Of a DNA stretch of 55,926 bases, positions 23,785-55,926 are shown piece after piece. The notes beneath the pieces were generated by a model that saw nothing but the letters and a program-made list of their open reading frames with translations, searched no databases and was not told the origin of the DNA. This stretch comes from Bacteroidales bacterium (GTDB lineage: Bacteria > Bacteroidota > Bacteroidia > Bacteroidales > Bacteroidaceae), in assembly GCA_030528885.1 (NCBI GenBank), contig JAUMXY010000016.1:1-55926 (forward strand). Direction: 5' to 3'. Positions within the stretch are counted from its first letter, which is position 1. Each line of letters starts with the position of its first letter. The translations under genes were made by a program, and so were the position numbers.

Positions 23785-25203
23785 ATGACTTTAATACCAC
23801 TCTACAAATGGACAAAGGGCTTACATACCTTTGAACTTTCCAGAGTAAACTTCATGAATCAGCCATGGGCAAGTGGCATTACTCTTTTAGCATGTGTCAT
23901 CATTGCGATGCTGCTTGCCAACTTGCCTATCACAGCACATCTGTATCATGAAATATTAACAACAAATTTGACCATAAAAATCAGCAATGATTTCTTCGCT
24001 ATCAGTATACCAGAGAATATGAATGTTGAGAAATTCATTAATGACATATTGATGGTGGTTTTCTTCTTCACTGTAGGTCTGGAAATAAAGAGAGAAGTCG
24101 TATGTGGTGAACTTTCAACAGTCAAAAAAGCCATTCTGCCAATTATAGCTGCCGCAGGTGGAATGGCTGTTCCTGCTATAATATATGCAATATTCAATGC
24201 GGGAACGCTGACTTCAGGTGGTTGGGGAATACCCACGGCTACAGACATCGCATTTGCTATAGGCATCATGTCCATTCTTGGCAATAGAGTTCCCGTTTCC
24301 TTGAAGATTTTTCTCACGGCTCTTGCCATAGCTGACGATTTAGGTGCCATACTTGTCGTAGCCTTTTTCTATGGTGGCGATATTGACTTACCGCTTCTCT
24401 TCATCGCTTTGTTCATATTAGCAATTGTGAGACTGATGAACAATTTGGGAGAGAAACGAATGGCATATTATCTCGTCCCTGCCATTGTAGTATGGTTCTT
24501 ATTTTATTACTCAGGCATCCACTCAACCATGTCTGGAGTCGTTATGGCTTTCATGATTCCTATGGATGCTCGTTTCAGTCATGCATATCTGAAACGAAGC
24601 AATCAGAAATACATCAATCGGCTGGCTGCATATGACCTTGAAAACAGCAAAAGTGGAACACTATTTCCAAATGAATCCCAAAGACATTGCTTGCACCGTA
24701 TGAGTTATATCAACAACAACTCCATAGGCATGTCATATCGTTTGGAGCACGCCCTTGCCCCTTGGGTGAATTTTCTCATTATGCCTATTTTCGCAATAGC
24801 CAACGCAGGAGTTGTTATTCCTGATATCAGTTTTTTCAACATTTTCCAGCAACTGCCTATCGAAGAAACAGGTTTTGTTGGTTTAGGTATATTTTTCGGC
24901 CTGCTGCTTGGCAAACCTATCGGCATATCCCTCGCAAGCTTCATTGCAATCAAATCTAAAGTGGGAGCGATGCCTGAAGGAGCTTCTTGGAAAATGCTCT
25001 TTGCTGTTGCTTGTCTTGGAGGAATTGGGTTCACGATGTCCATCTTTGTTGATACGCTTTCATTTGGGAATCTTGCCCCTGAAGATACAGAGACCTTGCG
25101 TGCCTTTGGTAAAATAGCTGTTCTCTTGGGTTCTCTATGTGCTGGAATATTGGGTTCCCTATTAATAAGCATATTCCATAAAATGGAATCTCGAAGAAAG
25201 TAA
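23785..25203 (+). CDS. nhaA: Na+/H+ antiporter NhaA
   Basis: A 472-residue inner-membrane exchanger that expels Na+ for H+ and supports pH and salt balance. The paired transport aspartates are Asp184 and Asp185 in ALAIADDLGAI; other family blocks are FFFTVGLEIKREVV, GGWGIPTATDIAFAIG, SGVVMAFMIP and GIGFTMSIFVDTL. It is longer than the 388-residue E. coli protein, mostly by a cytoplasmic loop near residues 265-310. It is the last gene of the two-regulator operon and is followed directly by repeat copy A. Confidence 0.95.
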   Translation: MTLIPLYKWTKGLHTFELSRVNFMNQPWASGITLLACVIIAMLLANLPITAHLYHEILTTNLTIKISNDFFAISIPENMNVEKFINDILMVVFFFTVGLEIKREVVCGELSTVKKAILPIIAAAGGMAVPAIIYAIFNAGTLTSGGWGIPTATDIAFAIGIMSILGNRVPVSLKIFLTALAIADDLGAILVVAFFYGGDIDLPLLFIALFILAIVRLMNNLGEKRMAYYLVPAIVVWFLFYYSGIHSTMSGVVMAFMIPMDARFSHAYLKRSNQKYINRLAAYDLENSKSGTLFPNESQRHCLHRMSYINNNSIGMSYRLEHALAPWVNFLIMPIFAIANAGVVIPDISFFNIFQQLPIEETGFVGLGIFFGLLLGKPIGISLASFIAIKSKVGAMPEGASWKMLFAVACLGGIGFTMSIFVDTLSFGNLAPEDTETLRAFGKIAVLLGSLCAGILGSLLISIFHKMESRRK

Positions 25204-25206
25204 AAA

Positions 25207-25654
25207 AACGTAGTTCGATATAAAGATTCTGCCTCGTAGAGGCCTGCAAAAAACATATTTTGTCATATCGAACTCGTCTTTCCAAACGTTCACGACATTT
25301 GTCAGACACAGACACTTCAGCATGGAGGCACAGGGCATTTTCACCTTGTGCCTCTTTTCTTTTTGAGGAGGGCTGGGCAAGTGGCTTCAAACGCACACCG
25401 TGCAGGCAAGGTTTCAGACACCGTGTGCATAATAACACGAACACCCTGTGCCTATTATTTCCGACACGGGCGGCATGTCTGAGTATCAACGATTTGGAAT
25501 TTTGGAAGGGAAAGGGCACAAAAAGCGTACTCGAGGGGTACGATGCGGCGCACCCCTCGGGTACGACACGTTATCTAAAACGTCAGTTCGATATAAAGAG
25601 CCGCCTTGCGAGGCACTACAAAAAACAATATCTTTGTTATATCGAACTCACGTT
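25207..25654. repeat. Dispersed ~450-bp hairpin-bounded element, copy A
   Basis: Each end carries a hairpin made from AGTTCGATAT and ATATCGAACT (25212-25221 with 25265-25274; 25585-25594 with 25639-25648), each with a small inner GCCTC/GAGGC-type stem; the outermost bases AACGT...ACGTT are also inverted. The core 25311-25478 is identical over 168 bp to 37710-37877. The core holds GGCACAGGG (25327-25335), which can pair with CCTTGTGCC (25344-25352) or CCCTGTGCC (25444-25452), and a 14-bp stem at 25526-25565. Long frames on both strands (for example plus 25260-25679) have no start signal and are judged non-coding. It fills the space between nhaA and the convergent cbpA-like gene and touches the latter's stop codon. 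Confidence 0.85.
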
Positions 25655-26306
25655 ACTGTCCCTTTCGTGCTTGTTCTAATAGTGCCTTTTGCTGTTCCGT
25701 CAAATTAGCAGGAATGCTGACATCGTAAACTATAATAAGGTCTTTGGGGGTTCCGTCACTCTTTGTTCCACCCTTCCCTTTCAAACGGACTTTCTTGCCT
25801 GGCTGAGTTCCTGGAGCGACCTTAAGCTTGAACTTTCCAAATGACGTGCTGACAATCAGTTCGCCACCAAGCATGGCCATCCATACATCAATAGCAACAT
25901 GCGATTCTATTTCAGAAGGTTCCTGAGGGCGTTGAGATGTACGTGTACGACGTCCTCCCATTCCTCCAAATATTTGTTGGAAAAAGTCACTCATTCCACC
26001 TTCACCACCCATATTGAAGCTAAAACCTTCAAACGGATTGCCTCCTCCTGTTCCCGCACCAAAGCCTCCAAACTGTTCTGCTTGTTTCCAATTCTCTCCA
26101 TACTTATCGTATTTAGCTCGCTTTTCAGGGTCATTGAGAACCTCATAGGCCTCGTTCAGAAGTTGAAATTTCGCTTTAGCTTTCGGGTCATCAGGATGCA
26201 AGTCGGGATGGAATTGCTTTGAACGCTTGCGATATGCTGCACGTATATCCTTCTGAGGGGTGTCTTTAGTGACTCCCATAATTTTATAATAATCGATAAA
26301 TGCCAT
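25653..26306 (-). CDS. Short CbpA/DnaJ-like co-chaperone
   Basis: A 217-residue J-domain protein that stimulates DnaK. The J domain (residues ~3-70) has the HPD motif (FHPDLHPDD). A Gly/Phe-rich linker (~78-120, [13 protein letters not shown]) follows, then one C-terminal substrate-binding domain ([22 protein letters not shown] ... [18 protein letters not shown]). The zinc finger of DnaJ is absent, so it is CbpA-like, but CbpA is about 300 residues with two such domains; here the middle part is missing. The start at 26306 begins the J domain; the frame continues upstream without similarity. Its stop codon coincides with the end of repeat copy A. Confidence 0.87.
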
Positions 26307-30714: not shown

Positions 30715-30783
30715 TGTTATTATGATGAACGGCGTATCGTAATTACGATGCAGGGCATAACGTAATTGCGATGAAAGGTGCAG
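30715..30783. repeat. Three tandem units of a 23-bp repeat
   Basis: Units at 30715-30737, 30738-30760 and 30761-30783 share the pattern TAATTACGATGnAnGGCnTA. The middle one contains the 14-bp palindrome ATCGTAATTACGAT (30736-30749). The third is identical over 18 bases, in reverse, to 10875-10892. The pair at 1-45 is a more diverged relative. Confidence 0.75.
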
Positions 30784-37604: not shown

Positions 37605-38063
37605 ACGTGATTCGATATAAAGATTCTGCCTCGCAGAGGCACTACAATAAACTTATTTTTGTCGTATCGAACTCGCCTTTCCAAACATCCGCGACACTTG
37701 TCAGGCACTGACACTTCAGCATGGAGGCACAGGGCATTTTCACCTTGTGCCTCTTTTCTTTTTGAGGAGGGCTGGGCAAGTGGCTTCAAACGCACACCGT
37801 GCAGGCAAGGTTTCAGACACCGTGTGCATAATAACACGAACACCCTGTGCCTATTATTTCCGACACGGGCGGCATGTATGAATATCAACGCTTTAGATTT
37901 TTGGAAGGGAAAGGGCACAAAAAGCGTACCCGAGAGGTGCGCCATGCCGTACTCGAGGGATACGATACGTTATCAAAAGTCAGTTCGATATAACAAAATA
38001 TGTTTATTGTAGTGCCTCTGCAAGGCTGAATCGCATAACGACTCTTTGTATCGAACTGACGTT
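37605..38063. repeat. Dispersed ~450-bp hairpin-bounded element, copy B
   Basis: Same plan as copy A: left hairpin 37605-37673 (ATTCGATAT with ATATCGAA-type arm; inner GCCTC/GAGGC at 37628-37640), core, right hairpin 37982-38057, ending GACGTT. The core 37710-37877 is identical to 25311-25478 over 168 bp, while flanks differ by substitutions and small gaps. In copy B the right hairpin is reversed relative to copy A: its inner sequence reads as the reverse complement of the left hairpin type. Frames such as 37659-38012 (plus) and 37568-37945 (minus) overlap it and are not regarded as genes. Confidence 0.85.
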
Positions 38064-55878: not shown

Positions 55879-55926
55879 AACGTCAGTTCGATATAAAGAG
55901 TCGCTTCAGCATGGAGGCACAGGGCA
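55879..55926. repeat. Dispersed hairpin-bounded element, copy C (cut by window end)
   Basis: It starts with AACGTCAGTTCGATATAAAG, the same end sequence as the right hairpin of copy A, then jumps after AGTCG straight into the core: 55904-55926 is identical to the start of the conserved 168-bp core (CTTCAGCATGG... at 25314 onward). The left-hairpin remainder and the first ~40 bp after it are absent, so this copy has a shorter layout. The rest lies outside the window. Confidence 0.8.

Follow-up and report, generated by a model that had tools for sequence, protein, structure and literature searches.

Why do two copies of a dispersed repeat, lying 12.4 kb apart in the window (the whole 55,926-nucleotide stretch analyzed here), share a core of 168 bp with 100% identity (25311-25478 and 37710-37877) while the sequences around that core are unlike? 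An earlier note, which our comparison confirms on this identity, left open whether the core is held equal by selection or by gene conversion and suggested a non-autonomous element or a structural-RNA repeat. We consider it probable that the repeat is a mosaic MITE of 400 to 470 bp, driven by IS982 and spreading terminators, with both transposition and termination inferred from sequence.

The window corresponds to contig C56 in a draft genome (G000; 2,622,338 bases, 73 contigs, 89% complete). Placed by their terminal inverted repeats, copy A extends from 25208 to 25653 and copy B from 37605 to 38062, both on the plus strand. The third copy, reported from 55879, is present and begins at 55880 on the plus strand; its left module is shortened and the contig end cuts it at 55926, so that only its start is contained in the window. 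The window's final 55 nt are also the first 55 nt of contig C66, and we take the third copy to be, presumably by this contig-end overlap, the same copy as C66:33-196. A search of the genome returned 33 core matches, bearing out the expectation of many copies: 31 are near-full (154 to 168 of 168 nt, 94 to 100% identity), and the other two are a half copy on C55 (79 nt) and a 23-nt piece at the window end.

The core is well conserved, yet not invariant genome-wide as had been supposed. Among the 31 copies, 38 of 154 aligned sites vary, two copies differ on average at 6.5 of 154 sites, and 3 of 465 pairs are identical, the pair A/B being one of the three. Per-site diversity in 17 copies is 0.02 to 0.09 across the linker, the T1 hairpin and the three-box stretch, and 0.19 to 0.42 rightward, where the alignment is also gapped. 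Besides decay, haplotype blocks and the exchange of modules contribute to this rightward increase. The right hairpin module has opposite orientations in A and B, and the flank divergence that had been ascribed to substitutions and indels thus consists in part of whole-module swaps. In the four-gamete test, 63 of 171 informative site pairs fail, which is compatible with exchange between copies, repeated mutation being another possible source; the idea that gene conversion keeps the core equal is plausible to that extent. For the core identity of A and B, one haplotype set in unlike flanks, the best explanation is a recent copying event or gene conversion between the two copies rather than perfect functional constraint.

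The outer ends of the element read inwards as ACGTSAGTTCGATATAA and form terminal inverted repeats; the left end of copy A (ACGTAGTTCG) has one base less than the consensus ACGTSAGTTCG. At 13 of 32 loci both ends lie within four mismatches of the end sequence, and five of these two-ended copies are bordered by exact 7-bp target duplications (TTATTGA, TTCTTTA, TAATTTG, TAACACG and TTAATTA), compared with 1 of 156 mismatched control end pairs; with one mismatch allowed, the counts are 6 of 13 and 6 of 156. A good target duplication is absent from seven of the 13, copy A among them, and none is recognizable by eye at copy B. A wider scan of 66 end pairs from loci of G000 and of the related genome G017 found exact 7-bp repeats in six, against 34 of 4,290 controls. 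All six are composites of 401 to 471 bp (one, in G017, is the ortholog of another), and single internal modules gave no exact duplication and one 6-of-7 case; the composite is therefore the unit.

The same ends lead to a parent. An exact search with the 12-base end sequence found it in 39 of the 45 genomes of the genus. G000 has 47 sites, compared with one for the reversed control, while some genomes of the genus hold few sites, not above their own controls. At least six facing end pairs lie 1.02 to 1.07 kb apart. The element at L322 (G008:C17) is intact, 1,070 bp long, with ACGTGAGTTCGATATAAG at both ends and an ORF of 300 aa that is an IS982-family transposase (NF033520, 247 bits, NCBIfam cut-off 130; Pfam DDE_Tnp_1_3); ACGTGAGTTCGATATAA is common to the MITE ends and both ends of L322. 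This supplies a transposase family where the earlier note knew of none. It also weakens the claim of a new kind of element, because the ends match an IS982-family element, and kinship with an IS-derived MITE was the outcome that the note itself had set against that claim. What we have is a new IS982-type MITE, set apart by its mosaic cargo.

Other traces of the parent are broken. L324 and L334 are broken IS982 copies between facing ends, and exact 7-bp duplications are lacking at the three IS982 copies read (none at L322 and L324; six bases, TAATTA, at L334). G000 carries an IS982 3' remnant at C28:28146-28270 and, by eye and with no tblastn match at 1e-3, what looks like a 5' remnant at C8:84187; the exact end sites read outside composites in this incomplete draft held no intact IS982. 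End-repeat pairs of 38 to 48 bp with almost nothing inside (L303:995-1035, L302:1565-1602 and L313:1054-1101) are perhaps minimal deletion relics of the MITE. In G009 and G016, end-repeat sites lie about 110 to 140 nt from several contig starts, as expected for a multi-copy element that breaks assemblies.

From left to right the composite consists of a left hairpin module, a linker, the T1 hairpin, the three-box stretch, a second linker, the GTACCCGAGGGG palindrome and a right hairpin module, with one or both end modules missing in many copies. In copy A the left hairpin module with its terminal inverted repeat occupies 25208..25275 on the plus strand (module match 25207-25275; fold z -3.69). 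The T1 hairpin follows at 25324-25355 (12 pairs; -21.3 kcal/mol, z -4.84) and, with the T-rich tract behind it, makes up an intrinsic-terminator-like feature at 25324..25365 on the plus strand. The three-box repeat, its boxes 23 nt apart, lies at 25387..25479 (plus strand), the palindrome GTACTCGAGGGGT..ACCCCTCGGGTAC, a long hairpin given no strand, at 25526..25565 (fold of 25520-25575, z -5.02), and the right hairpin module with its terminal inverted repeat at 25580..25653 (plus strand, fold z -4.29). In copy B, T1 (37723-37754) and its T tract span 37723..37764 on the plus strand with a terminator-like score, the three-box repeat lies at 37786..37878 on the plus strand, and the right hairpin module is matched at 37976..38062 on the minus strand. 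Both three-box repeats match the covariance model R1 described below. Palindrome-like stretches of 40 to 52 nt with 81 to 88% identity occur at ten further places in G017, one of which (L154) was read.

The three-box stretch of copy A is no longer a good hairpin. The stem between box 3 and the 3' arm has decayed, the fold of 25390-25480 being no better than shuffled sequence (z -0.53), and in the G000 core the 3' arm can no longer match box 3. Because the stem has decayed there, a terminator role for the three-box repeat in the window's copies is doubtful.

Outside the window, the three-box repeat leads a life of its own. BLAST of the core over the genus gave weak matches of about 41 to 78 nt in G008, G015 and G044 and near-full ones in G017. 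The shared unit consists of CACCCWGCGC boxes every 23 nt with an inverted copy after the third, and in relatives it mostly stands alone, at about 95 nt. At E up to 0.001, model R1 (93 positions, 22 sequences) matches 14 of the 45 genomes of the genus, 11 of them with 23 to 71 matches and three with one; the other 31 have none. Homology mostly ends near the model ends (G008, G044, G027, G029, G030, G031, G034 and G041), extends from about -17 to +115 in the G015 copies, and by eye includes a loosely conserved tail. Offset scans for target duplications of the stand-alone repeat gave scattered small excesses only (best 9 of 99, at 4 nt), which we take as none. At L159, L173, L174 and L176 (G029, G027 and G030) the repeat is adjoined upstream by an array whose unit resembles GTATACGAGTGACGTTGAAGGTGT.

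The R1 matches of G017 (71, or 82 in another count) are mostly weak and often on both strands, and in the loci read there four boxes are arranged as a palindrome within MITEs whose outer ends are the same. Such MITEs, about 180 to 215 bp long, with ACGTGAGTTCGA ends and the four-box palindrome inside, were seen at L217, L219, L227, L229, L231 and L233; their boxes are CACCGTGCGC with 23-nt spacing, then inverted, and three of those scanned have 6-of-7 duplications. Across 301 genomes of the family, where the best 14 candidates per genome were scored and sensitivity was low, R1 matched ten, nine of the same genus and G153. The G153 copy is a transfer or a contaminant, because its surrounding DNA is 95 to 98% identical to G027/G029 over 1.9 kb. 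Among 21 records matching the pattern, 20 are Prevotellaceae, Bacteroidaceae or Bacteroidales MAGs, some from ruminants; the other, L095 (Limisphaerales), has no box structure nearby and was dropped as a chance match. In viral contigs the core pattern and one pattern of the stand-alone repeat had no exact match, and a match to a short module pattern (L347) is, by eye, likely coincidence.

In these stand-alone copies the stem lost from G000 is conserved by compensation. Over 98 copies, box 3 and the 3' arm are paired in 88.6% of cells, compared with 77.5% after shuffling, and 144 cells are changed on both sides against a mean of 53 (200 shuffles that did not keep relatedness); the covariation score is 0.310 versus 0.132, with none of the 200 shuffles as high. 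A first alignment of 23 rows had given a score of 0.209 versus 0.100 (0 of 500 shuffles as high); its number of pairs changed on both sides was not unusual (reached by 137 of 500 shuffles), and RNAalifold predicted only 6 pairs at -1.35 kcal/mol. A box 1 hairpin was discarded for want of covariation, and an alternative stem between box 2 and the 3' arm showed a weak excess (79 cells versus 55) that we attribute to the similarity of the boxes.

The stem can furthermore be followed at fixed positions. Across genomes, 49 locus pairs share flanks of at least 200 bp at E up to 1e-20, some of these flanks being repeats themselves; 13 of the 49 are G008-G044 pairs, from 13 of the 14 G008 loci given (G008 has 45 matches in total). 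In 28 chosen orthologous pairs, 11 of the 13 stem pairs with changes on both sides are still paired in both genomes, against 0/1, 2/2, 3/5, 2/6, 1/5 and 0/3 in slid-partner controls; loci recur among the 28 pairs, so that some changes enter the count repeatedly. Single stem changes kept the pair in 11 cases and lost or lacked it in 21. In 100 copies, four of the five positions 90-94, which follow the stem, have T at frequencies of 0.64 to 0.78. Covariation and the trailing T support a hairpin that would act at fixed sites, most simply a predicted terminator. The stand-alone repeat as a predicted structural RNA with compensatory changes, also between orthologous loci, holds; the structural-RNA reading of the earlier note thus applies to these relatives and to the other hairpins of the element, and fails for the three-box stretch of the window's copies.

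The MITE and the stand-alone repeat are both enriched in gaps between convergent genes. We placed 29 of 32 G000 loci, 26 of them with genes on both sides: 17 are convergent, 5 co-directional and 4 divergent. The background of 72 gaps of at least 60 bp, taken from the window and L096-L115 of related genomes and itself holding copies or the motif, comprises 12 convergent, 42 co-directional and 18 divergent, so that convergent gaps stand at 17 of 26 versus 12 of 72 (Fisher p 8.5e-6). Gene calls here are crude ORFs with cut-offs of 90 aa for copies and 110 aa for background, and some of the ORFs flanking G000 copies are short, with one overlapping the core. The stand-alone repeat has 84 loci flanked by genes on either side, which divide into 33 convergent (p 0.0024), 7 divergent (p 0.008) and 44 co-directional; other gaps within these loci number 6, too few as a control. 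The co-directional copies show no clear orientation preference (24 with versus 20 against), which counts against a one-way terminator, since such an element would show one. The convergent excess is compatible with avoidance of promoters as well as with a gain from terminators.

Two other accounts concern the core. The core might be a functional RNA, small or cis-regulatory, under strong selection amid decaying flank, and its low diversity (0.017 to 0.086 per site in bins over 25321-25480, 17 copies, against the higher values to the right) and the covarying stem kept by relatives in other species speak for this. However, that very stem is broken in the own genome, the 38 variable sites lie within the core, the left linker (0.08 to 0.09) is conserved to about the same degree as the opening part of the core, and Rfam returned no match at gathering score for the window and 20 loci, nor at E up to 1 for 25150-25700; we therefore think this explanation unlikely. 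The window likewise holds no tRNA or tmRNA. Gene conversion or ectopic recombination might, alternatively, equalize the core alone, with no host function at all. The single haplotype of A and B in different flanks and the four-gamete failures are what such a process would leave, and we hold it possible, with reserve, as it explains neither the compensatory changes at the fixed loci of relatives nor the excess of convergent gaps.

The remaining two accounts concern the class of the repeat. Palindromic modules, an intergenic position and tens of copies recall REP/REPIN-type repeats moved by a Y1 (RAYT) transposase, but Y1_Tnp (PF01797) has no match in G000 or in six of ten other repeat-rich genomes, the other four (G015, G027, G029 and G030) have weak part-length matches, two of them barely above the cut-off, in a search that also matches in 5 of 14 control genomes, and the target duplications point to a different kind of enzyme. 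With the Y1 gene absent, we rejected this origin for the own assembly, and it is very improbable overall. A short protein-coding repeat is less credible still. Two plus-strand frames are open in all 31 copies of the 154-nt core, and 30 of the 31 keep a minus-strand frame open as well; nevertheless, variable sites are spread evenly over codon positions in each frame (12, 12 and 14 sites, the order varying), and synonymous changes make up roughly the expected share in all six frames. On this test we rejected a coding core; the element is non-coding, and the earlier note's reading of it as a non-autonomous element is supported.

Returning to the IS982-driven mosaic MITE, we propose the following course of events. 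An IS982 transposase acting in trans would have moved the MITE. The stand-alone three-box repeat would be a transcription terminator or 3'-end element; the MITE would have captured one such repeat and then dispersed it alongside T1. Insertions between converging 3' ends may have been tolerated or favored, as the hairpins would stop transcription there. More tentatively, and with less confidence than in the MITE itself, the three-box repeat may be an undescribed structure-conserved 3'-end element, portable and probably a two-way terminator, that spread through part of this Prevotella-like genus, reached fixation at orthologous positions and was taken up twice by IS982-type MITEs (as the three-box core in G000 and the four-box palindrome in G017), which dealt terminators into convergent gaps.

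In a little-studied gut genus, one dispersed repeat thereby gains a concrete parent and an anatomy, and its mobility becomes testable. The compensatory changes at orthologous sites, in a repeat of limited spread, are evidence of a dispersed repeat put to work, and capture of the three-box repeat by MITEs would be one way for signals that end transcription to spread through a genome. The stand-alone repeat, found outside the window, is more novel than the MITE.

Both can be compared with several described repeats. MITECca01 of Cardinium, an IS982-derived MITE with ISCca4 (PMC9769881), is likewise non-coding, many-copied and mostly intergenic, with inverted repeats like those of its IS982-family parent; it is about 240 bp long and its genome holds intact parents, whereas the window's element is a hairpin-module mosaic of 400 to 470 bp for which only parent remnants were seen. 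The closest described kind found for the stand-alone repeat is PINSR, a 188-bp repeat of Prevotella intermedia/nigrescens, which (PMC4755523) is similarly intergenic, apparently non-coding and clade-limited, without terminal inverted repeats and with positions mostly shared between strains; the window's element differs from PINSR in its terminal inverted repeats and target duplications. BrickBuilt of Porphyromonas gingivalis (PMC4596501) is an intergenic MITE with 23-nt repeats between leader and tail modules, but by eye its 23-nt unit AGAYCATARTATCCTCTCRTRTG and its IS5-family-like ends are other sequences than those of the window's element. SPRITE, RUP and BOX of Streptococcus pneumoniae (reviewed in PMC10969869) are dispersed, in some cases terminator-like, and insert into one another; they belong to another phylum. 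A literature search by titles and opening portions of abstracts yielded no description of the element or of the three-box repeat.

Some further sharing with G017 was seen. A 15-kb query from the window matched G017 in repeats only (best 40 of 121 candidates), and G017:C77 (L049) is 95.5% identical to L015 of G000 over 2.8 kb, which is a transfer or MAG contamination. At 30719-30782 the window holds another dispersed repeat, of the form CGTAATTACGATG..GGGC, that matches several places in G017.
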